The notes beneath the pieces were generated by a model. It was not told the origin of the DNA. It made no database searches and worked only from the letters and a program-made list of their open reading frames with translations. This document shows positions 2,846 through 57,113 of a stretch of 64,000 bases of DNA, one piece after another. The position numbers were made by a program, and so were the translations under genes. How positions within the stretch are numbered: the first letter of the stretch is position 1; every line of letters starts with the position of its first letter. The stretch is from Porphyra umbilicalis. Taxonomy: Eukaryota > Rhodophyta > Bangiophyceae > Bangiales > Bangiaceae. The DNA is taken from positions 145,085 to 209,084 of the forward strand of contig KV918882.1 of NCBI GenBank assembly GCA_002049455.2. The letters are read 5' to 3'.

Positions 2846-3628
2846 GATGCAAGCACGGTCGGGCAAACCTCTCAGCCACCAGCGACGATGCCACCAAAAA
2901 ACAGCACGGCTCCTTGCCGCAGCGCAAGGGACGCGCCACAAAGCTCCTACGTGCGTGTGCAGCAGCGACAGGGATGACGCTGCCACCGGGACAAGGTGGC
3001 ACGACGATACGCAGCTCGCCCGAGGCGTGCCGCAGATGGCGCTGCGCCGAGTGGGGCTTGGAACGCCCGCCCGTGCCTTTCGGCCTGGTCCAGCGGGAGG
3101 GTGCGTAGCAGGGGGTGACACAGCGACTTGCTGGCGACGCGGACTGGTCTCAGTTTTCTGCCCTCAGGCCCATATTGGTGGGACCTGTGTCCATTTGTGG
3201 TGGCGGCCCGTTGGTCCAGCCGGGATCGGCTGCAGCCGACCAGTGCGGGTGCATCGCTGCATCATGCAACAGGGCTGCAACCAAGTGTACACGTCTGCAG
3301 CTTCCAATCCTAGCCACCCTTTCCGCCGCAGAGCGCCGCGCCTCCACCTGACGAGGACGGCCGTGTCCTCCAGCTGAGAGTTGCAACGTCGATTATGATA
3401 CAGGGAGGTTGCCTATCATCTGACCTTTTAAGAACAAATAAGCATAGAGAAAAAGAAGATGGAGGAGCGATAGCGCAAAAAAAATATTTTTATCAAGCTG
3501 ATGACGTAGCGGAATATGTTCTGCAAAGAAACATCGTGCCTGACCTCTCTGTTTTTTTCGTTTATTGCGGTTATGTGTCTCCCCTATAGGCCGGAAATCG
3601 GGCGGATCGGTGCCCAACACCTGATTTG
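2846..3628. other. Kinase 5' flank with an AT-rich island
   Basis: Upstream DNA of the kinase. About 3400-3570 is distinctly AT-rich with A runs, unlike the surroundings, and leads into MITE A copy 2. No gene seen. Confidence 0.5.
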
Positions 3629-3630
3629 TA

Positions 3631-3715
3631 CAGCCGTTCTCCCAAAAATCCCGCACCCCAACAGTTGCAAAAGAGTTCCAAATCGGCCTCTGCGGGATTT
3701 TTGGGAGAACGGCTG
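3631..3715. mobile_element. MITE family A, copy 2 (85 bp, internally deleted)
   Basis: Same ends as the element at 353-484: CAGCCGTTCTCCCAAAAATC at both termini as a perfect inverted repeat, flanked by TA at 3629-3630 and 3716-3717. The left arm is complete through the AATCGGCCTCT block but the matching right inner arm is missing, so this is a deletion derivative of copy 1. Confidence 0.85.
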
Positions 3716-3717
3716 TA

Positions 3718-4969
3718 AGCACCCGTTTCTGACCCCGTCAGGGCACATTTCCTTGTGCGGATCGTCATCTTTGGGCCTCCTCCCCAACCGCATCCGACTG
3801 CTTGAGGCCATCCAGCCTGCAGGGTTGCGTCCATCGTAGCGCGTGTTGGCCTTCCTGCTACAAAAAAAAAAACACCACTAAGTGGCAGGCGGCTCGCTGC
3901 GCTTGTAAACGGCATCTTGAGTTGATGCTTTAGAGCGGTACCAACAACGTTCCGCATCCACAAAATATGGGCCCAAGTGTCCCACGTGGTCCCATGTGGC
4001 GCCCTACGCGGAAAAACGCAGCCTGAGTGATCACCGACAACGCCAGCGAGACGGATCTGTCCACAAAGGCACTGGAAACGATTCAGAAGATTGAGATAAG
4101 TTCAACCGGATAACATGCGGGGGGTTCGGAAGCGTTCGCGAATGCCGGCTCGATCTCCACATACATATTGCTGTCTTCCTAATTTTTGCCGATGTGGTCG
4201 AAGTTAAGACTGGGTCTCGGTCAACTGCCCATTGGCGGATCCACTTTATCCGGCCAAATGGATGGCTGAGACACAGTTTTGTACAGTTGATCACCCTTCT
4301 TGACATCGACGGTATCGGCCAAAATTGAGAAGGCAGCAATAGAAGGCCGATATGCGGATCCCAAGCGCCCGTTCGCGACTGTGTCGAGAAGTTTGACCTG
4401 AATCTGAGTGCTGTCATGGACGGAATGAAGCCAAACGAAGCCAAACGACGCCCAGTGACGACCGCGATCGTGGCCACGTGTGGCGTCGTTTGATCGCACA
4501 GCCGGATATCATCCGTCGCGAACGGAACAAAAAGTCGTGAGGTTCGTCTTGTCGAGCCCCTGCAGACTCTCACGGCAGCGAGGTGCAGTCATTGTGCGCT
4601 TGTAAAGCAGGGTGGAGCACTTTGTAGCCCACGTAAGAATTTACAGCTGATTGGACAATCTGTTCCGAAACGACAACCACCCGAGGTGCTCATGACGCTC
4701 GATCGTGAATTTGAATCATAAATTGTGCAATGAGACACGGAAGGGCGTGGCAAGACTTGTGCCCCGTCCTTCACGAGGTGTTCCTGGGGGGGTAGGCAGG
4801 CAAATTTTGACAGACTTGAGGCAGCGGATTACTCGATCGCAGATCAGCTGTGAATCATCACTTCAAGTGCCATCAAGTGCGGTGGGCCCCGCACCGGAGC
4901 GATCGAGTTGCGCTCAGTTATAAAGCAGGGTACCTTATAAGCGGGACACATATAAATGCGCAATGACTG
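3718..4969. other. Moderate-GC intergenic DNA, possible decayed transposon
   Basis: Base composition is lower in GC than the genes on either side. No convincing protein is present: the 180-codon frame at 4031-4573 (-) has no domain or biased composition. CAGTCATTG near 4587 and its complement ending at 4969 may be worn ends of an element related to the one at 44929-45653, but the left end lacks the flanking TA. Confidence 0.35.
4552..4578 (+). repeat. 27-bp dispersed repeat, copy 2
   Basis: Matches 310-336 with a single mismatch. Confidence 0.6.
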
Positions 4970-5205: not shown

Positions 5206-5211
5206 AAAAAA
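5206..5211 (-). terminator. Pol III T-run after tRNA-Ile
   Basis: Six T residues on the minus strand 11 nt past the discriminator base of the tRNA gene, followed by another T4 block. This is the usual RNA polymerase III stop. Confidence 0.7.
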
Positions 5212-5221
5212 GACACAGCCG

Positions 5222-5328
5222 TAACGGAGAAGGGGACTTCATGATTCAATCTCGAACCCTTGACTTTGGCGTTATTAGCACCACACTCTGCTTAGGAATC
5301 ATTTCCAAACCAACTGAGTTACACCGTC
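5222..5328 (-). tRNA. tRNA-Ile (anticodon AAU) with D-loop and T-loop introns
   Basis: Read on the minus strand, all four stems are present. Acceptor 5328-5322 pairs with 5229-5223 (one T-T mismatch, one G-T). D-stem ACTC/GAGT is perfect. The anticodon stem TGGTG/CGCCA encloses CTAATAA, anticodon AAT (5276-5274), and this arm matches eukaryotic tRNA-Ile closely. T-stem AAGGG/CCCTT is perfect. The discriminator is A5222. The gene is 107 nt because the D-loop is 27 nt and the T-loop 22 nt. Removing 18 nt (5307-5290) restores a D-loop AGTTGGTTA, and removing 15 nt (5251-5237) restores a T-loop TTCGATC, giving a standard 74-nt tRNA. There is no intron in the anticodon loop. The extra introns interrupt the internal A- and B-box promoter regions. 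The exact intron ends are inferred. Confidence 0.88.
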
Positions 5329-10154: not shown

Positions 10155-10180
10155 GCTACACGCTGTCCTCCTAAAATGCA

Positions 10181-10297
10181 TGGAGACAGCGGGGGTTTCA
10201 ACAAAGTAAGTGTTCGAACCCGCGATGGACAATGGTCCAATCACATGTCGACGATAACCTCTTAAGTGTGACGCCTTAACCACTCGGCCATGCCTCC
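10181..10297 (-). tRNA. tRNA-Leu (anticodon UAA) with anticodon-loop and T-loop introns
   Basis: On the minus strand the acceptor GGAGGCA (10297-10291) pairs with TGTCTCC (10188-10182; one G-T), with discriminator A10181 as usual for Leu. D-stem GCC/GGC and anticodon stem TCACA/TGTGA are perfect. The loop CTTAAG..A gives anticodon TAA (10264-10262). A 14-nt intron (10260-10247) sits at the canonical 37/38 site. A 5-bp variable arm TGGAC/GTCCA is present, as expected for class II tRNA-Leu. T-stem GCGGG (10223-10219) pairs perfectly with CCCGC (10193-10189), but 25 nt separate the strands instead of 7, so an 18-nt intron lies inside the T-loop. After both removals the tRNA is 85 nt. The T-loop intron interrupts the B-box. 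Exact T-loop intron ends are ambiguous by one or two bases. Confidence 0.9.
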
Positions 10298-11491
10298 TTC
10301 TTCGTCGCGCGGGAGTTGTATACATTTATATTGGCGGAAAGAGTGAATCCCAAGTGTACGTAATTCCACGAACAAATACTTCCACGTGTGGAGTGCATCG
10401 CTCTAATTCGGTTGCTATCAACATCACGCCTCGCAGGCCCCTCGCGTGTGCCCTCGCTGGCGATGGCCGCCTCGGCCACCGCGCCAGGGTTGTCGTAAGA
10501 CACGACCATAGCGTCCCAGATCTTGGACGCGACGCAGCCGACCGGCTGTAGCGTTCACGCCCGTCGCCCCACGCGCGTCGGGCGGGTCCGCCACGCCCGT
10601 GCTGCCACCGCGCGGGGAGCGGGATGGCGGCGGCGCGCCCACCCCCGCGTGCCCGCCCGCCAGTGGCGCGCGGCATTGCGCGCGCCGCCGACCCCAATTT
10701 GATCCCCCCGGCGCGTCCGCCCCCGCGCGGCGCGCGCGGCGCCGCGGCGCCGCGGCGCCATCGGCGCCAAATTGGGTCCCGGTCCGCCCGACGCCGCACC
10801 CGAGCGGATTTGGGTGGGGGGCGGGGGGGGCGGACGAGCGCCACGCGCGGGCGGCGCGGCACGGTGCAGGGTGCGGCCGCCCACGACCGCCACCTGGCTG
10901 CACTGCCGACGGTCCGTCGGCAGCGGTGTGGGTGTGTCGCCGCGTGGCGGCCGCGGCGGCGCGCGGGGATGGTCCCGCGGGGGTCCCCGTGGGGGAGCCG
11001 CGCAGAGGTTGTCGGGCGGCCTTGTCGCTACGGCACCGCCCATGGCGTGAGGCGGCGCACGGTGGAATTGGGGCGGGTACCCGCGGGCCACCGCGGCGGC
11101 CGCGCGGGGATGGGGGGTGGGACAGGGCACGGGGCGGCCATGGGCAGGCGGGGCAAGCGGAGTGGGGGGGCGTCCCTGGAGAGGCGCAGCGGGTGGGGCG
11201 GAGCGACCGCGGGGCGCGCCTCACCGTGCCTGGCTCGCGGACCGTCCCCGGTGAGGGTAAATAGCGCTGCCGGCAGCGTCTCCAGTGGTGTTCTCTTGCC
11301 CACCATCCGCCGGCAGCAGTCACCAGCAGTACATAGCCACCTCACCGCCAACGGGTCGTCCGCACCCCCCGACCCCGCCGCCGCCGTCCGACTTTCATCG
11401 CCGGCACCCGCGTCTGCTTCCTCTTCCCCCCCGTTTGCCGCTCGCCAACCTCCCGCCTGACACGCCTCCCCGTCGTTCCTCACCGGCCGCC
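10298..11491. other. GC-rich intergenic region, no gene seen
   Basis: Upstream of the secreted Cys-rich protein gene. Many spurious frames, no domain. The short AT-richer part near 10310-10400 flanks the tRNA gene. Confidence 0.5.
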
Positions 11492-19987: not shown

Positions 19988-20628
19988 CGTCACGGGCGGC
20001 CGCCGCGGGGGGGGGGGGGGGGGGGTGCTGCCCACGGGCGGGTGGCGGCGGGGCGGCGGGGCGGCGGGGCGGGGCGGGGCGGGGCGGGGGCGCGTGTCGG
20101 TCGACGCGGCGGGCGGGAAGGGTGGGGGCGGCAAACAAGGCCGACGGCACGTCGCCGCCGCGTGGGCGGGAGGGGGGGGAGGGGCGTGGGGGGGAGGGCG
20201 CTTGCGCCGGCAGCAGCCGCTGCGGGTGGCGGGCGGGCGGGTGGCGGCCGCGGCTCGGAGATTGGGCGAGGGGACACGCCGCCCGCCGCCCGCCGCGGAT
20301 GCGGCGCGCCCCAAGTCCGCAACCGGTGCCACTTGCGTGGTCGGGATTCTCATCGTTGTGACGCGTGCATGCGGCGCTGGCGGCACGCACCCCCGCAGGC
20401 GCCTTGCGTCTAAAGGCGCAGGGGGGGCGTCTGAGCAGCCCCACTCCGTGTGCGCTGCTAGCTAGAGGGCTGTCTGGCGCGCCCCTCCCCGCTGCGCAGC
20501 GCAGCGGGGCGCGCACCCCCTGTACAGGACCGTGGCGTGATGCGGCAGTCGCGCGCGCGCCTGCGCCGCCGACGACGGGGCTGGTTGCCGGCGCGGACGC
20601 GCGGGGCGTGTACCGGTGCGTCCGCACC
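19988..20628. other. Divergent promoter region
   Basis: Lies between the starts of the protease (-) and Sel1 (+) genes. Rich in G/C homopolymers; no separate gene is supported. Confidence 0.45.
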
Positions 20629-22674
20629 ATGCAGGGCTGTCTGCAGGCGGACCGCGAGATGACGCTGTTGCGGGATGGGCTGAGGGGCAAGGCCGTGCGT
20701 CAGGGGGTGGTCGCAACGCTCGAGCCGGGCGTGGGCCTCCTGTTGACCAAGAAGGGCGACGGGGGAGCGGCTTGGAAACACGTCGTGCCGCTGCCAAGGG
20801 GACGGACCGAGGTGAGGGTGCTCGATGAGCCCGGGGGTGCGCGCGTCGCGTTGGCCATCATCGTCAGACGGGCGGCCGGGACCGCGGTAGAGGAGCAGTG
20901 GCACCTGCGCACGTCATCGAGCGCCTCTGCGTCCGGGTGGGTGGAGCGCATCAAGCCGTGGCTGGTTTCGTGGGGGGAATTGGTCGCCTGTGGACGGGGT
21001 GCATCACTCGCGGTGCTCGGTGGCCGCGAGGCCGCCCTGCACGCGTCGGCCGCGGCGACGAGCATCTCCAAGGACGCGCTGGCCTCAGCAGGCGTCAATC
21101 TGTTCCAGCTGCTGGTCGGCATCATCAAGAGTGTCGGGGGTGGCGTTAAAGCTTGGGGACACGCCCTCGAGGACAAGGGCCTGATACGCGTCGGGGAGTC
21201 GATCCCTCTCGTCGGTCCCATGTTGGTTTTCCTCGCCACCCTCTGTCGTGTAGTCGCTGACGCTTTGGCGGAGCACAAGTCCCAGGAAGCGGTATTGGCC
21301 GCAGTTGTTGGCCAAGCGGAGCTGTGCATCCACGCGTTGTGCCTGTGCGCACGGTTCTCCGCAGCCGACAGCCTCATCATGCGCCGGTTGGTGACCCATC
21401 TGTCGGCATTGGAGGGCGAGGTGGTCAAGCTGCTGCGGTTCCGGTATCGTCATTGGCGACGATCTGTGTTTGCGCGTCAAGACCAAGCGCCATCAGCTGT
21501 CCAGGCTCGTCTCGACGACCTCCGAGCCGAACTCCTGCCGGTGCTCGGGCTTGCACAGCTTGAGCTTCGCCACCACTCAGCCCCGTCCACTGCTCCCGGG
21601 CAGCAAGAGCCTGACAGTGGAGCGCAGCCATTCCCAGCTGCGAAGCTTTACCGAGAGGCGGCGGCCGAGGGCAACGTGGACGCCAAGATTAACTTCGCAT
21701 GGTGCTTGATGCTCGGACGGGGGGTGGCCAAGGACAAGAAGCGGGCGGTGAAGCTGTACACCGAGGCCGCAGCGGCGGGCCACGCAGGCGCCAAGAGCAA
21801 CTTGGGGTACTGCTTCGAGAGCGGATTGGGGGTGGCCAAGGACGAGAGGCGGGCGTTTGAGCTATACACCGAGGCCGCAGCGGCGGGCGACAAGGTCGCC
21901 AAGTACAACTTGGGGTACTGCTTCGAGAACGGATTCGGGGTGGCCAAGGATGCGAAGCGGGCGGTCGAGTTGTACACCGAGGCTGCGGCGGCGGGCGACG
22001 CGGGCGCCAAGAGCAACTTGGGGTGCTGCTTCGAGAACGGATCGGGGGTGGCCAAGAACCTGAAGCGGGCGGTGAAGCTGTACACTGAGGCCGCGGCGGC
22101 GGGCCACGCGCGTGCCAAGAGCAACTTGGGGTGCTGTTTTCAGAGCGGATCGGGGGTGGCGAAGGACGAGAAGCGGGCGGCGGAGCTGTATGCCGAGGCC
22201 GCGGCAGCGGGCGACAAGGTCGCCCAGTACAACTTGGGGAACTGCTTAGAGAACGGATTCGGGGTGGCCAAGGACGTGAAGCGGGCGGTGGAGCTGTACA
22301 CCGAGGCCGCGGCAGCGGGCGACGCGGGCGCCAAGTGCAAATTGGGGTACTGCTTCCAGAGCGGGTTGGGGGTGGCCAAGGACGAGGAGCGGGCGGTGGA
22401 GCTGTATTCCGAGGCCGCGGCGGCGGGCGACGCGGTCGCCAAGAGCAACTTGGGAAACTGCTTCGAGAACGGATTCGGGGTGGCCAAGGACCAGAAGCGG
22501 GCGGTGAAGCTGTACACCGAGGCCGCGGCAGCGGGCGACGCGGGCGCCAAGAGCAACTTGGGGTGCTGCTTCGAAAACGGATCGGGAGTGGCCAAGGACG
22601 TGAAGCGGGCGGTGAAGCTGTACACCGAGGCCGCGGCGGCGGGCCACGCGGGCGCCAAGAGCAACTTGGGGTAA
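20629..22674 (+). CDS. PH-like / helical-bundle / Sel1-repeat protein, ended by an in-frame stop
   Basis: The first ATG of the frame is 20629, giving 681 residues to TAA at 22672-22674. Residues about 1-110 look like a PH-type fold: alternating strands ending in an amphipathic segment WVERIKPW. Residues about 170-320 are helical and Leu/Ala/Val-rich (GPMLVFLATLCRVVADAL...), similar in layout to the four-helix HeLo/MLKL-type bundle; both calls are inferences. From about 340 on there are Sel1-like repeats of 36 residues (pattern AKD.KRAVELYTEAAAAG.AGAKSNLGYCF..G.GV). Ten are complete or nearly so before the stop, with four more in the same frame after it. Sel1 repeats usually act as protein-binding solenoids. 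The stop replaces the TAC of the conserved NLGYC motif. Confidence 0.8.
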   Translation: MQGCLQADREMTLLRDGLRGKAVRQGVVATLEPGVGLLLTKKGDGGAAWKHVVPLPRGRTEVRVLDEPGGARVALAIIVRRAAGTAVEEQWHLRTSSSASASGWVERIKPWLVSWGELVACGRGASLAVLGGREAALHASAAATSISKDALASAGVNLFQLLVGIIKSVGGGVKAWGHALEDKGLIRVGESIPLVGPMLVFLATLCRVVADALAEHKSQEAVLAAVVGQAELCIHALCLCARFSAADSLIMRRLVTHLSALEGEVVKLLRFRYRHWRRSVFARQDQAPSAVQARLDDLRAELLPVLGLAQLELRHHSAPSTAPGQQEPDSGAQPFPAAKLYREAAAEGNVDAKINFAWCLMLGRGVAKDKKRAVKLYTEAAAAGHAGAKSNLGYCFESGLGVAKDERRAFELYTEAAAAGDKVAKYNLGYCFENGFGVAKDAKRAVELYTEAAAAGDAGAKSNLGCCFENGSGVAKNLKRAVKLYTEAAAAGHARAKSNLGCCFQSGSGVAKDEKRAAELYAEAAAAGDKVAQYNLGNCLENGFGVAKDVKRAVELYTEAAAAGDAGAKCKLGYCFQSGLGVAKDEERAVELYSEAAAAGDAVAKSNLGNCFENGFGVAKDQKRAVKLYTEAAAAGDAGAKSNLGCCFENGSGVAKDVKRAVKLYTEAAAAGHAGAKSNLG

Positions 22675-38779: not shown

Positions 38780-39780
38780 ATGTTGGGCTTTGTGTCGGCC
38801 TTTGGTGGGGCGACCCTTCGGGCGCCGACCGCGTTTGCGGGATGCCGCGTCGCGGCGCCCGCGGCGCCCGCCGTCGCCCGCTGGACGATGGTCAAGAGCA
38901 AGGCCATCCCGTTTATGGAGGCGCCGCCCGCTCTGGACGGCTCCATGATTGGGGGTACGTTGTGTGGGTCCGCGGCTCTTGTCTGGCGACCGCGCCGCGG
39001 GCGTGGTCGCGGGCGTCGGCGTGGCGTGTTGCGTTGGCGGGTCCCGGCAGGGAAGTGACCTCTGCTGTGCCGCTGGGCTGCCGACTAACCGGTGCGACGG
39101 TATTTGGCCTGGTGTCTGCTCCCTGCCCTCTCGTCCGACTGTGTCTCCCCTCACAGACGTTGGCTTTGACCCGTTTGGCTTCACCAACTACATTGACCTC
39201 AAGTTCCTCCGTGAGGCGGAAATCAAGCACTGCCGCATCACCATGCTCGCCGTGCTCGGCCTCTTTGTCCAGGAGTTTTACACGCTGCCCTTCTACTCGG
39301 GCCCGGCGCTGGCCGAGCCATCCCACAACTTTTACGTCGCGCACGGCGCCATGAAGCAGCTGCTGCTGTGGACGTCGGGCTTGGAGATTATTACGGGCGT
39401 GCCGGCGCTGCTGCAGATGATGCAGGGCTCCCCGCGCCGCCCCGGGGAGTTTGGGTTTGACCCCCTGGGCTTGGCCAAGAACAACGCTGCGTTTGCGCGG
39501 TGGCAAAACGCGGAGCTCATCAATGGCCGGTTGGCCATGATTGCCGTGGGGGGGCTCATCCACCAGGTCCGTTGCGCTGCTCCCGCGTGTGTGCTTTGTG
39601 GTTCTGAGGGTCTGTCGGGGCGCTCGCGTGATTTTTTGCCCCCTGTGCATGATTCTAACCCCCCTTTGTCGTTCCATTGCTTTTCCGTGGCTCTCTCTTG
39701 TGTGGCTTGCCCGACCACAGGAGTGGATGACGAAGCTGACGCCCATCCACCAGCTCACGGCCGGCAAGATTTTCCCGTAA
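38780..39780 (+). CDS. Red-algal light-harvesting protein of photosystem I (LHCR type, 3 exons)
   Basis: Exons 38780-38954, 39157-39566 and 39721-39780 with GT-AG introns give 214 residues. A transit peptide of about 35 residues ends near a WTMVKSK motif. The mature N-terminus has the LHC VGFDPFGF motif. Helix 1 carries the chlorophyll-binding E..H.R motif (EIKHCRITMLAVLGLFVQE) and helix 3 the E..N.R motif (ELINGRLAMIAVGGLIHQE); helix 2 lies between them. LHCR proteins bind chlorophyll a and carotenoids and serve photosystem I in red algae. There is no signal peptide ahead of the transit peptide, so targeting is to a plastid reached directly from the cytosol. The reading frame is intact. Confidence 0.95.
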
Positions 39781-40289
39781 AAGGGCTCGCCGCCGCATCG
39801 GTGAAGATGCCGTCGTTGGCCGGGTGCTTGGTGTGCTTTTTGTGTGCTGCGAGTCGCGGGCCCTTTGGTTTGCTGGATGTGGTGTGAGCAGTTTTTTCTT
39901 TTTTTTGTTTCGTTCCCTTTCGTCTTTTCTTCACAACTCGTCTCCTCACGTCTGCGCTCGGCCACGCTGGGTGCACGTCACTGGTCTTGGTCAAGCGCTG
40001 GTTTAGTCTGTCCACCCGTCACTGGCGCAAATACCACGCAACCCTCCAGGCGGTGTCACACTGGGCTCCAACACCACAGGCGCAGCCCGCTCCAGCACGG
40101 CCACCGCACCCGCACGAGAGCGCCGCCGACGCGAGTGCGCTCGTCGATGGCGCGGCAGCCGCCCGCGCCCCAGAGGTGCGACTGCGCAAGGCGTCTGTCT
40201 CGCGTGGCACCCCCCAGAGCCGGCCGCCGGCCGCCCCGCATTGCCGGGTCACCCGACCGCCGCTGGTGCCCCAGCGCCGCGCCCCCCGC
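39781..40289. other. Convergent spacer with T-rich 3' flank
   Basis: Between the LHCR (+) and PAQR (-) stop codons. A T-rich stretch at 39885-39930 follows the LHCR stop. No gene. Confidence 0.6.
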
Positions 40290-50998: not shown

Positions 50999-52644
50999 AT
51001 GTCTACTGGTGGTACCGGCGGCACTCGGCGAGCCGGAGACGGCAAGTTGCCATCTGGCTACCGGCCGCCGGGCGGGGGACAAGGCACTCCTGCCGCCTCC
51101 GACGCCCCAACGGACGGTGCTCCAACTCCTCCCATCCCTGCGGATCAAGCCGCCTCTGGGCAGATGCAGGTGGTGGAGAGCCTGAAGGCGGCCGTTGAAG
51201 CACTTCAGCGACGCCTAACGGCCTAAGAACAGACTAACGAGTCTCTGGCGCGAGCCAATGACAAGTTGGTCGACGACGTCGAGGCCCTGCGCAAGGTCGA
51301 CTCCCACGAGGAGGAACGCCGTGTGGCTAAGTCTCGCCGCCAGTCGGGCGACAAGACCAAGAATGTCATGACGACGAGCAAGGCGACTAAAGGCAAGTCC
51401 GTCCGCAAGGACGCTCCGGCTAACGCCGCGCCTTCCTCATCTTCCGACGATTCCGCTTCTGGGTCAAGCTGGACGTCGTCAGACGACGACAACCCCAACG
51501 CGACGGACACGTCCTCTTCGGACGATGGCTACGGGCCCGCAGGCCCGTCGTCGCCCCCAAGTGGGTCCTCGCCGAGCGACAGCTCGAGCGAGTCGGACGC
51601 GGCCGCGCGCAAGCGCCCCGCGACCCCCACCAAACGGAAGGAGCGACTCGAAAAAGCCGATAGGATCAAGATGATCCGCCCGGCTCATAGCCGCTTCAAG
51701 ACACTCCTTGACTACAGGACGTACTTCCTGATCCGCCGTCAACTGACGTATACGCCTAAAGAGGCACAGCGGTCGCACCGTCTCAACAAACGTTTGGACG
51801 GAGCGTTCCATGGGCAACAGCCATTCACGGGAGCCCTGCCCTTGGGCATCTTCACGTTCCTGACGACCTTTCGCCGCGCGTGCGACGCGGCTGGGCTGAC
51901 GCACGGTCAAGCCCGTCCGCTTATAGTCTTTCGACTAGCCGGCAACGCCAAGATGGCCTTCTCCGGCGCGCTTAACAGCACCCTCGGACGTAAGCGTTAT
52001 GCCATCCGTACATACGGAGATGCCGTCAACTGGCTTCTTTCGAAGTATGCGACGCACGCGACTATGGCCAACGCCTATTAAGACATCATTACGATGAAGC
52101 AACAAGACAACGAGGCGCCCACGGCCTTTGGTCATCGCGTGGAAACGCAATGCGACCTCCTGAACGATTTGTTCGACATCCAAGACGTTAAGGACGTCTT
52201 CATCACTGGTCTTTCGGACCTTGTGCAAGCGAACGTCCGGGTACTGAATGACCAGTTCCCCGACCGAACCCTGTCTGAGACGGTCGCCCCGCCCAGATGT
52301 ATTGGGACGGTACGAACAAGTTGCGTTTGCAACTCAAGATGACCCGCCCAACGGCGATCAAAGTCGCTTACGCGACACAAGACCAGCGGACGACGACGGA
52401 ACGACCGTTCACACCGGTTCGTACCCCGCCGCCCCCTCGGGCAGCCGTCCCTCAAGCCAATCGGGCTGACATCTGTTACAACTGTAACAAGCCGGGGCAC
52501 TTCGCCGCACAGTGTGCCGAGCCTTATCGCCCCCGCGAGCGTCGGCAACCGCCTATCGGCGTTCATGCCCTTGCCGACGGTAACGTCGAAGAAGACGAGA
52601 TCGAGCATCCGGCCGACGCCGTGGACGACTCGAATAACGTCTAG
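50999..52644 (+). pseudogene. Ty3 gag with CCHC knuckle, interrupted
   Basis: ATG 50999 opens a Gly/Pro-rich N-terminus and a coiled-coil stretch, then a Ser/Asp-rich linker, a helical capsid region (FLIRRQLTYTP, FLTTFRRACDAAGL, MKQQDNEAPTAFGHRV) and a zinc knuckle CYNCNKPGHFAAQC near 52475. The gene is broken by TAA at 51224-51226, TAA at 52079-52081 and a frameshift near 52285 at a C-rich site. The first two stops sit where CAA (Gln) would fit. Confidence 0.85.
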
Positions 52645-52649
52645 GCCGT

Positions 52650-55600
52650 ATGCTCGACTTGGGGTTGCCCGGCGGAACGCGAAAGCGTAGGGTGACAAGA
52701 CTCTTACGTCGTGCCCTTCGGCACTATGAGATCGCAGCCACGTTAGGCCCCTGCCTGTGCGTAATGCAAAGTTGCCGCCCTGTCTTAGTCACGGGCGCCG
52801 GGGTGAACATAGTGCGAACTAGTGTTCTCCCTTCGAACTGGATGGCTTACGCCGAAGAGTTGACTACTCTTCCGCGCATCCGAGATGCAAACAACAATCG
52901 TCTCGTGACGAAGTATGCCATACATCTGTATGTAGACACCGGAGGTGTGCATCTCTTTGACCGATTCCTCGTTGCCGACAACTTGTCAGTCCCGTGCATT
53001 CTTGGCACCGAGTTCATTCAACAAAACATCGAGGGCATTCTGCCGCGCTTGCGCAAGATCGTCTGGCAAGAGCACGTGCGATGCACGGAAGAGCAACCTC
53101 GGCCAACGCCGATCTTAGCTTGTCTTAACGACAGCGCGTGGGACCGCCACTGGCAAGATAGACCCGCTGGGGTTCGAGCCTGCAAACAGGTGCGTGTCAA
53201 CGGACACAAGGAGGAGTGGATCATGGCCACGTGCGACACGCCTGGTATGGTTACCATCACACCGAACATTCGGTTGTGCCGACACAAGTCCATGGCAGTC
53301 GCCCGCGGCATCGCCATCGTCAAACCGGACGAACCATTCTTGGTCAAGTTCTGCAACTTCGGCAAGGATCAAGTCATTGTTCGCAAGAACTCAACCTTGG
53401 GGTTCGCAGAACCCTACCAATGGCCGATGCTTTCCGCCGTCTTGGATGACAACACCCCAAAGGGTGGAACCGATAACTCATCGGACGACGCGAGTCGTGA
53501 CCCACTCGAGGACCTCGACCTCAGTGAGGCACCCGAGTACCTGCACAAGCAGATTCGTGACATGCTTAAGACGCATTCGTCTATGTGGGATGGAACCCTT
53601 GGCGTCCTCCGTGCTACGGAGCACGCCATCGTCACTCCTCCCGACGCCCTGCCCATACGGGCCCAACCCTACCGGACCGGGCCGTTCAAACGGCAGATCA
53701 TCGCTGATCAGATCAACAAGATGTTGAAGCTCAACGTCATTGCCCCTAGCCACAGTGCTTGGGCAAGCCCCGTGGTAGTTGTACTAAAGAAGAACGGCAA
53801 AGCCCGATTCTGCGTCGACTATCGTCGGTTAAACAACATCACCAAGAAGGATGCTTATCCCTTGCCTCGGATGGAGGACTGCCTTGACTCCTTGGGAGAT
53901 GCCCAAGTGTTCACGTCTCTCGACTGCACCGCGGGGTACTGGCAAGTACCCTTACGCAAGGACGACCAAGAGAAGTCGGCGTTCACGACGCACTGTTGTA
54001 TATACCACTGGTTATCCATGCCTTTCGGCTTGACGAACGCGCCGGCTACCTTTCAGCGTGCGTTGGATATTATCCTCTCGGGCTTGAAGTGGAAGATATG
54101 CCTTGTCTACCTAGACGATGTCATCATCTTCGCCGCAAACGCGGAACAACACGTCAAAGACGTTGATACGGTTCTGCACCGTCTGCGAGAAGCCGGGGTT
54201 ACCCTCAACTTGGAAAAGTGCACGTGGTTTTCCGATGAGGTCGAGTACCTAGGACACATTGTCCGCCCCGGGCCACTGCACGTGCACAACAAGAACGTGG
54301 ATGCTCTGAAGCATGCCAAGTTCCCAACAACAAAGATCCAGCTGAAAAGCTTCTTGGGCATGTGCAACGTCTATCGACGGTTTGTCACAGACTTTGCCAA
54401 ACGAGCAAAGCCCCCGAACGCCCTGACTAGGGCCGAGATCCCACCGGATCTACCACCACCAACGGACGTGGCTATCGCCGCATTCGAAGACCTTCGAATG
54501 GCACTATTGTGCCCACCGGTACTTGCCTTGCCAAAGGCCAATCGGAAGCTCGTCGTTGACGTTGACGCATGCGCCGACCAAGTTGGTTGTACCCTCCTCC
54601 AGGAGGAGCCGGGCGAACTGCTTCATCCTGTCGGATATTGGAGTTGAGGACTCACTGCTGCAGAGCAAAACTACTCCACGACGTAGCGCGAATGCCTCGG
54701 CGTCCTGTGGGCTGTCCCCAAGTTGAGGCACTTCCTCGACGGACAACGGTTCCTCATCCGAACGGATCATCAAGCACTTAGCTGGATCTACATCACGACC
54801 GACTCAAGCGGACGCTTGATGCGATGGCGACTTCGCCTCTCCGAATACACATTCGATATGGTTTATAAACCAGGTGTATCGCACCACTTGCTCGACTTCC
54901 TGTCGCGCGCCTCTACGGTGGCGCCGCCAGAAGATATCCATGATGATATACCTTGTCTGGCATTGGCCGAGACGGCCAACGGCTTAAGAACGGGGAGGTA
55001 CACGGGTACCGACACACCGGAACCGGTGGAGTTCGACGATGTTGTCGAAGCACAACAAACAGACGACTTCTGCGTCGAGATGTCCACTCGCGTGGAGCGC
55101 GGAACGGCCAAGGCCTTCTTCCGCGATGAGCATCACGCTCTGTACCGCCGTGCGCCTTACGGCAATCAACTGGTTATTCCAAAGTCGCTACGCGAACGCG
55201 TGTTGACCCTCGAGCACCACGCAACCGTGGCCGCCCATCCTGGTATGAACCGGATGTATTACAGAATGCGTAAGGCATACTACTGGCCTTCAGTGGTGAC
55301 GGATATTCATTCGACCATCACCAAATGCACAACGTGTGCGCAAAATCGCCTCGCCTTGCGGCGACACACCACGCCCTTGACCCTGTTCCAGGCTACGGAG
55401 TCTCTCACGGAGCTATCCGTTGATATCTTTGGGCCCATTCCGGCCTCCAAGAAGGGCAACCGCTTCATCTCGGTTATCACCGACCGCTTCGCCAAGCTCA
55501 CCAAGTGCGTCGCCTTGCGGCGAATCACGGCCATGTCCGTGGCGTCAGCCATCATCGACGCTTGGGTGTCAGCCTACGGGCCACCGGACCGGATCCTATC

Positions 55601-57113
55601 GGACGAAGGGCCCCAGTTCATGTCGAGCTTCTTCATCGCCGTGATGAAAATGCTTGGCATTGAAACGGTTCGCACCACGGCGTATCATCCCCAAACCAAT
55701 GGGCAAGTCGAACGGTACAACCGTACCATGGCTACTCAGCTGCGACACTACGTCGCCGACGACCCATCACGATGGGATGAGCTACTCCCGGTAATCACCA
55801 TGGCGTATAATAGCCAACCACACCGGTCGACGGGCATCGCCCCATTTGAGCTCGTTATCCCAAGGCGGATCCCCAACCTCACGGTTCGCAACTTGCCCCC
55901 GGGCACTCCGCTTACCAATAAGGGAACGCTCAAGGACGGGTCACCCCTAGCTCGCAAACGCGAGTTCATGGCCCGCCTGCGCAAGCAGATCCCCATCGTA
56001 GTCGAGGCCTTGCGTAAGACGCAACAACGTTACAAACGTAACTTCGACCATCGGGTCGCAACCCGCAATGCGGACGTCAAGATCGGCGACTACGTATATA
56101 CGACCAACCACGATCGGCAAAACAAGCTGCAAACCAAAGCTATCGGACCCATCGTGGTCATTGACGCAGACGCGGACGCCTCCACGTTTGTCATTGACAT
56201 TGACGGGGAGGAGAAACGCGTCAGCAGTGACCATGTCACCCCAGCTCCTCTTCCAACGACGACGGACACGGTTCCACACCCCCTGCTAGATGGTCTAGAC
56301 CAACGTAAGTCACCCCCGGCAACTGCCGATGAGTATGTGATCAACAAACTCCTAGGCTTACGCCAGACGGGTGAAAGCTATAGCGCTAAGGTGCGCTGGT
56401 TCGACTACGGGTCGAAAGAGCACACCTGGGAACCCCTGGAGAACCTCCCCCGCAACCTGGTGGTGCGTTTCCTTCGACAGAAGAAGAAGCATGTACCGGG
56501 GTACGAGTGGCAAACGCCAACGCGACGAAGTCACCGACAGGCCGGGCTCACAACCGTGGCCAACATCGTCATGGACTCCACGTGGATACCCACTATCCAA
56601 CATGTCCATGTTACCGGTGACGGAGTTATCCTTGCCGACGTCTCGTGGACAGAGTCAAGTACAGACGTTGCAATTAAGGAATTAATTCCTGTTGCGTGGC
56701 TCAAGTCCACTCTGCCGTCCATGACGCGCAACTTGGCGTATGATCCCCAACTTGCCTTGCGGCATTTCTCTCGGCTGAACCGTGTTTACGGCCCGTACAC
56801 ATATGTGTGGCCGAAATCCGCACAGGCGACACTGATCGGGAGCGATCCCCCTGTACCAGTGCTCCCCAACGGGTTTCTGGTACCTCCGGTGCAACACTTG
56901 GACTCAGTCCTTCGACGCTTGGTAACAACCACAGAGGAAGCAACCGTGGTAATACCACAATGGACCAACACCAGTTGGTACGCTACTGCCATACGTGCAT
57001 GTTTCGAGTACGAAGTGCTTTTATCAGCAGACTCAAGGGATACAAATCCCACAACATGGGCCATGATGGCCTGCCACTTCCTTCATCGCTATGACGATAA
57101 ACAGAAAAACTGA
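52650..57113 (+). pseudogene. Ty3 pol: protease, RT, RNase H, integrase, chromodomain, extra C-terminal domain
   Basis: A single frame from ATG 52650 with two stops, TGA 54645-54647 and TAG 54684-54686, both in RNase H (before and after SLTAAEQNYST-type sequence). The protease keeps GTEF but has Val in place of Asp before TGAG. RT is intact, with FCVDYRRLN, MPFGLTNAP and VYLDDVII. Integrase has the HHCC finger and the D,D,E set (DIFGPI, SDEGPQF, GQVERYN). A chromodomain follows (VRWFDYGSKEHTWEPLENL). About 185 further residues form an additional domain with IPQWTNTSWYATAIRACF that I cannot assign. Chromodomain integrases target heterochromatin. Confidence 0.9.

Follow-up and report, generated by a model that had tools for sequence, protein, structure and literature searches.

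We describe here a tRNA-Leu(UAA) gene in a window of 64,000 nucleotides (nt) from the red alga Porphyra umbilicalis (contig KV918882.1; the window is the whole stretch of DNA that was analysed), which is very probably a functional nuclear gene interrupted by two introns removed by endonuclease splicing, namely a canonical intron of 14 nt at position 37/38 and an ectopic intron of 18 nt in the T-loop at position 59/60. This reading is carried by the anatomy of the gene, by a bulge-helix-bulge (BHB) at the T-loop insert, by the boundaries of the inserts in a sister tRNA-Ile(AAU) gene and by the presence of enzyme genes, all read from the DNA; the transcription of the Leu gene, its cleavage and ligation and their order we infer. 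The first-pass annotation had already proposed two introns in this one gene, and this remains the best reading in view of the T-loop BHB, the same design in the Ile gene and an intronless Ile copy that equals the predicted spliced sequence. The genome of the window comprises 83.8 Mb in 665 contigs and includes a red-algal plastid sequence with phycoerythrin (C665; 185 kb, 30% G+C), whose rbcL is 97-99% identical to those of Bangia, Pyropia and Porphyra and at most 91% identical to those of the other named groups listed; these sequences place the host among the bangialean red algae.

The Leu gene lies on the minus strand, with its 5' end at 10297 and its 3' end at 10181, and has all parts of a class II tRNA (Table 1). 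The acceptor GGAGGCA/TGTCTCC forms 7/7 pairs, including one G-T, the D stem is GCC/GGC and the anticodon stem TCACA/TGTGA. The first-pass description of a canonical intron plus an 18-nt T-loop insert, with perfect T-stem halves 25 nt apart (7 + 18), a perfect anticodon stem and variable arm and A as the discriminator, was confirmed on every point by direct reading, and the overall gene also by ARAGORN after removal of the T insert. In the raw window neither ARAGORN nor Rfam reports any tRNA. Once the T insert is taken out, ARAGORN calls tRNA-Leu(taa), whether the 14-nt intron at 37-38 is kept or removed, and with both inserts removed it reports a clean 85-nt tRNA-Leu(taa), whose minimum-energy fold is the cloverleaf; removal of the anticodon intron alone does not suffice for the call. 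The 14-nt insert follows directly 3' of G37, i.e. one base 3' of the anticodon. Apart from its inserts the tRNA gene is complete, the T insert lies at a site other than 37/38, and excision of this insert leaves an orthodox tRNA. The motif TATAAA upstream of the gene we take, by its consensus, to be a TATA-like box. A plastid-derived copy was rejected as an origin of the gene, which is identical to the plastid gene in 54/88 aligned columns, and so was a permuted tRNA gene, the halves being in normal order (the 3' half is not upstream of the 5' half).

The cut point of a BHB lies after the second base of the bulge. A strict BHB was defined here as a central helix of four base pairs with two bulges of 3 nt and this cut, the bulge and helix geometry following PMC3978253. 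For the T inserts of both the Leu and the Ile gene, 1/6 cuts gives 4/4 central pairs and two 3-nt bulges, and the other cuts give at most 2 pairs. In both genes the passing cut is 59/60, the bases T54-T55-C56-G57 pair with TGAA near the end of the intron, and the resulting loops are ordinary (TTCGAA/C in Leu, TTCGAG/C in Ile); in Leu, a cut one base later gives an identical product. Since each cut of that length leaves seven bases, the evidence lies in the helix and the ordinary loop, not in the loop size. Among 100000 shuffled inserts, a four-pair helix in that register was formed by 848 (0.85%) for Leu and by 3061 (3.1%) for Ile. The D insert of the Ile gene has a strict BHB at 1/10 cuts. 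Folding favours the BHB of the Ile T-arm, with pair probabilities of 0.87-0.96, over that of the Leu T-arm (0.32-0.56). In the Leu T-arm BHB the helix h' of the outer loop has just 2 pairs. Of the BHB-like structures that the first-pass annotation wanted looked for at both Leu introns, the strict one was found at the T-loop insert, at 59/60, whereas the anticodon intron has at most a relaxed BHB.

The Ile gene (5328-5222) provides the comparison by which the predicted junctions can be judged. Its predicted spliced sequence is identical in 74/74 nt to an intronless copy at C507:1427-1500, which also shares the U-U mismatch 6-67 and the G-U pair 1-72 of the acceptor; nt 5-74 recur at 100% identity at C57:46225, 37951 and 29708, and at 99% at two more C57 places. 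With the unspliced gene as the query, the paralogs match piecewise, and the breaks, at nt 21/40 and 78, coincide exactly with the ends predicted for the exons. As the intronless DNA copies equal the predicted spliced sequence, both Ile junctions had been placed correctly by the BHB rule. Interrupted relatives occur as well: the D insert alone would account for the match at C57:70546-70637 (92 nt, 74 of them identical), and C169:150418-150524 looks like a copy with both inserts. The C169 copy differs from the window gene at 10/107 positions, none of them in exon nt 1-60 (P 1.5e-4 if random), where its bits and identity equal the window copy's own, and the D-only copy differs at 8/78 positions, none of them in exons (P 1.9e-6 if random), this split between exons and inserts being deduced from the reported percent identities and bit scores. 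The Ile inserts thus appear to diverge while the exons stay fixed, as expected for introns in used genes. A genome search gave 8 further Ile places for the unspliced query and, for the spliced query, 14 matches in addition to that of the window. On C57 (about 21,400 to 86,900), tRNA-Ile(AAU) occurs at nine places spaced 7.5-8.9 kb apart as a tandem array, which comprises five fully or nearly intronless copies, one with the D insert and three that match nt 30-74 only. From their sequences, the T-loop and D-loop inserts are most likely BHB introns removed by the tRNA-splicing endonuclease.

The first-pass annotation had also argued that a second gene with a T-loop insert in the same window makes chance an inadequate explanation; its "first case" is presumably the Ile gene. 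This argument holds, with the support of a full cloverleaf scan (four stems and T33), which finds exactly two genes in the window, the Leu gene and tRNA-Ile(AAU), the latter with 6/7 acceptor pairs, and no match in 300 dinucleotide-shuffled windows on both strands, ruling out chance as the origin of the two cloverleaves. A loose scan demanding only a T-stem, an A-box and an acceptor gave 34 matches when run on 100 shuffled windows, among them 7 in which all 7/7 acceptor pairs form, and was dropped as proof against chance, not being significant alone. A covariance model of tRNAs with T-loop introns, run on the window, recovers just its own training genes.

Several observations weigh against a functional Leu gene with two spliced introns or limit the evidence for it. 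That a search of the genome with the full or spliced Leu gene found no other place counts in favour of this reading, but the search, which detects close copies only, did not list the plastid Leu(UAA) either, so that the single-copy claim refers to close copies only. UUA is found once among 1384 codons of five domain regions and not at all in the two Sen open reading frames; as the codon is rare, loss of tRNA-Leu(UAA) would be tolerated better than loss of a common tRNA, and by the same token one Leu(UAA) gene may suffice. The identification of the Leu T insert as an intron rests on its own BHB and on the analogy with Ile. The 37/38 intron, with at most a relaxed BHB, forms 1/4 pairs at 37/38 and 3/4 one base on, with the same mature product; when the Leu T-arm is folded freely, the central pairs of its BHB have probabilities of only 0.32-0.56, and the minimum-energy fold of the full Leu precursor differs. 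Since intact Ile copies exist, the interrupted ones could be dispensable, and concerted evolution, not selection, could keep the Ile exons identical. Finally, a BHB T-arm pattern restricted to NNGGG stems occurs at 6 places genome-wide and its reversed control at 13, so that no excess is seen for the motif by itself; two of the six are the window genes, one is the Ile relative in C169, two are candidates in C134 (at 120825) and C610 (at 12138), and a match in C31 was rejected, as it reads as an ordinary T-arm (GGGTTCGAACCC).

With these points in mind, the alternative that survives best is a pseudogene, in which an insertion broke the Leu T-loop and left the locus silent. Insertions in the D- or T-arm of eukaryotic tRNA genes are usually judged to make pseudogenes if intact synonyms exist (PMC4090602), intact Ile copies do exist in this genome, and the rarity of UUA codons points the same way. 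We nevertheless regard it as improbable, because no other close Leu(UAA) copy was found, every stem is intact, and the TATA-like box and T4 flank the gene; moreover, the BHB is in register, and in the insert-bearing Ile copies exon nt 1-60 are constant although the remainder has diverged. The genome tRNA list comprises 49 RF00005 matches (63/1261 candidates scored), 24 of them outside C665. ARAGORN, applied to these 24 loci, made no call at 2 of them and reported neither Leu(UAA) nor Ile at the others; the list is incomplete and lacks the intronless Ile copies as well. For orthologs, 5' exon patterns gave no exact match in the viral_contigs or genome_contigs collections, which are not algal. 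That the Leu tRNA works unspliced, as a variant with an expanded T-loop, is very unlikely: its T-arm with the insert still folds into one extended hairpin, but a splice-type BHB is present, the intronless Ile copies have an ordinary 7-nt loop, and a loop of 25 nt would upset the T-loop geometry that the D/T elbow requires. A self-splicing group I intron, for which tRNA-Leu(UAA) of plastids and cyanobacteria is the classic host, can practically be dismissed, since inserts of 14 and 18 nt are far below ribozyme size, Rfam has no group I match within the window, the gene is not plastid-derived by the above comparison, and the plastid tRNA-Leu(UAA) has no intron according to ARAGORN.

For the preferred reading, splicing of two BHB-type introns, the genome encodes candidate machinery. 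PF01974 matches at two genome places, one resembling the solved Sen2 and the other the solved Sen34; the nuclear Sen2-like protein shares 69% identity with a protein of Pyropia vietnamensis across 71% of its length. A Sen54-type N-terminal domain is present, and an RtcB ligase is encoded in an open frame of 700 amino acids. One search with the PF09631 profile revealed no Sen15 (0 matches), in a setting where intron-split genes may escape detection and no eukaryote is among the control genomes, and a PF02778 profile search of the genome likewise gave 0 matches, exon-by-exon profile searches being able to miss genes. Sen2, Sen34 and Sen54 without Sen15 have been reported for the red alga Cyanidioschyzon merolae (PMC3978253; PMC4090602). 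In the Leu precursor, T54-G57 would pair with TGAA near the 3' end of the intron to form a BHB atop the T-stem, the tRNA-splicing endonuclease, with Sen2 and Sen34 as its catalytic subunits, would cut both bulges after the second base, and a ligase, probably of the RtcB type, would join the exons and restore the loop TTCGAAC; the spliced T-arm sequence expected in the mature tRNA is GCGGGTTCGAACCCCGC. By analogy with C. merolae, removal would begin with the T-loop intron and end with the 37/38 intron, and pseudouridine 55 would be made by Pus4 only once the T intron is gone.

Table 1. Features of the two interrupted tRNA genes in the window (introns, terminators and BHB strands as predicted)
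Feature	Position	Strand	Basis
tRNA-Leu(UAA) gene with two introns (117 nt; 85 nt when mature)	10181..10297	minus	direct reading, ARAGORN, cloverleaf scan
Anticodon TAA (UAA) of tRNA-Leu	10262..10264	minus	direct reading, ARAGORN
Leu canonical intron of 14 nt at 37/38, AGGTTATCGTCGAC; the junction can shift by one A	10247..10260	minus	ARAGORN on gene without T insert; junction test
Leu predicted T-loop intron, 18 nt, CACTTACTTTGTTGAAAC, position 59/60	10195..10212	minus	strict BHB only in this register; fold
T54-T55-C56-G57, 5' strand of central BHB helix	10215..10218	minus	fold, junction test
TGAA within intron, 3' strand of central BHB helix	10197..10200	minus	fold, junction test
Leu T-stem 5' half GCGGG	10219..10223	minus	direct reading
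Leu T-stem 3' half CCCGC	10189..10193	minus	direct reading
Leu long variable arm, class II, TGGAC/GTCCA	10224..10240	minus	direct reading, ARAGORN
TATA-like box TATAAA at -33 to -28 of Leu gene	10325..10330	minus	likeness to consensus
T4, putative RNA polymerase III terminator of Leu gene, starts 5 nt after discriminator	10173..10176	minus	
tRNA-Ile(AAU) gene with introns in D-loop and T-loop (107 nt; 74 nt when mature)	5222..5328	minus	full scan, ARAGORN, paralog comparison
Ile predicted D-loop intron, 18 nt	5290..5307	minus	strict BHB; intronless paralogs without insert at exactly the same junction
Ile predicted T-loop intron, 15 nt, position 59/60	5236..5250	minus	strict BHB; intronless paralogs without insert at the same junction
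T6 run, putative RNA polymerase III terminator of Ile gene	5206..5211	minus	

Elsewhere in the window, long open frames at 51227-57113 resemble, by eye, a gypsy-type retroelement. The pattern TGGCCGAG has 300 matches across the genome compared to 53 in a control, and among the matches listed with letters 26/51 are one repeat, which is also that of the retroelement stretch near 55031. Two long hairpins, at 352-485 and 3618-3727, share a similar arm (CCGTTCTCCCAAAAATCCCG) and have Rfam miRNA-family matches below the gathering score; they are more likely inverted-repeat elements. The window also encodes a light-harvesting protein of the chlorophyll a/b-binding type (38949-39887, PF00504) and a Sel1-repeat protein with seven matched stretches (20362-22674).

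Ectopic introns in the D-, anticodon- and T-arms of nuclear tRNA genes of C. merolae were reportedly described by Soma et al. in 2007 and 2013, and Kawach et al. are said to have described tRNA introns in the nucleomorph of Guillardia theta in 2005. Introns in the T-loop are rare in eukaryotes. In C. merolae introns interrupt more than 62% of the nuclear tRNA genes; at least 12 genes contain several, and three have them in the D-, anticodon and T-arms; the anticodon intron of tRNA-Ile(UAU) is the last to leave, and in vitro Pus4 makes no pseudouridine 55 as long as the T intron remains in place (PMC9602550). The permuted tRNA-Gly(CCC) of this alga has a T-loop intron at 55/56, whose processing precedes that of the 37/38 junction (PMC3978253), and 59/60 is the permutation junction of three of its genes (PMC3978253 Table 1). 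The Porphyra genes resemble this system as nuclear genes of a red alga with several short predicted introns per gene, predicted T-arm introns and BHB at the junctions; removal in cells is reported for C. merolae. The presence of Sen2, Sen34 and a Sen54-type domain, with no Sen15 found in one profile search, may be a further likeness. They differ from it in the position of the T-loop intron (59/60, as opposed to 55/56 in the Gly(CCC) listed in PMC3978253 Table 1), in the bangialean host and in the coexistence of copies of one tRNA-Ile gene that are intronless, D-only or D+T. The permuted tRNA-Leu(UAA) of C. merolae is the same tRNA species disrupted, again with a 37/38 intron (there 21 nt; PMC3978253 Table 1), but its halves are reversed and those in Porphyra are in normal order.

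In the Guillardia nucleomorph, tRNA inserts of 3-24 nt occupy non-canonical positions, including the D- and T-arms, with up to three introns per gene, and their excision was confirmed by reverse transcription-polymerase chain reaction (PMC4090602; PMC3978253). Red-algal nuclear descent and short D/T-arm inserts are common to both cases, although the Guillardia introns sit in a relict nucleus, unlike the nuclear genes of Porphyra. Position 59/60 and BHB are also known from archaeal ectopic introns and the permuted tRNAs of Thermofilum (PMC3978253); the likeness is one of position and BHB, in another domain of life and with another endonuclease architecture. A 2014 table on multiple-intron tRNAs names C. 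merolae as the sole eukaryote (PMC4033280), and among the literature matches listed there is no report of such introns in red-algal nuclei besides C. merolae. As ectopic D/T-arm introns have been published for C. merolae and a cryptophyte nucleomorph, this kind of intron is already known, and what is added here is its occurrence in bangialean algae and, in one genome, copies of a single gene that differ in their introns.

Further inserts in the D-loop were noticed by eye in other tRNA genes of the genome: in tRNA-Asn(GUU) (L034:361-453), where the insert starts TGGAA..TTCC like the Ile D insert and forms 3/4 central pairs, in tRNA-Arg(UCG) (L035:342-427), in tRNA-Leu(CAA) (C2:663634-663711) and in three tRNA-Leu(AAG) genes (C4:226737-226810, C4:250566-250639 and C4:279085-279158). 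On account of these inserts, ectopic introns seem frequent in the genome. Default tRNA gene finders may miss red-algal genes: a 2023 survey of eight species with tRNAscan-SE defaults reported tRNA-Ile only in two unicellular ones (PMC10496412). Hidden introns as the cause of the missing tRNA-Ile are only suggestive, as the genome described here also contains intronless Ile copies, which a standard tool ought to detect.

With the present genes the range of ectopic tRNA introns, hitherto an extremophile unicell and a relict nucleus, comes to include the seaweed lineage to which nori belongs, and both the trait and the unusual endonuclease may be general to red algae. The coexistence of intronless, D-only and D+T copies makes the origin of tRNA introns directly testable. 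We tentatively suggest, with less than even confidence, that BHB introns are now being gained and lost in bangialean algae, as the tRNA-Ile(AAU) copies with no insert, the D insert or both on matching exons would indicate, and that the one tRNA-Leu(UAA) gene found depends on the excision of its T-loop intron by an archaeal-like endonuclease without Sen15. If this is true, red-algal nuclei would generally use position-free BHB splicing, which hides essential tRNAs from standard gene finders.
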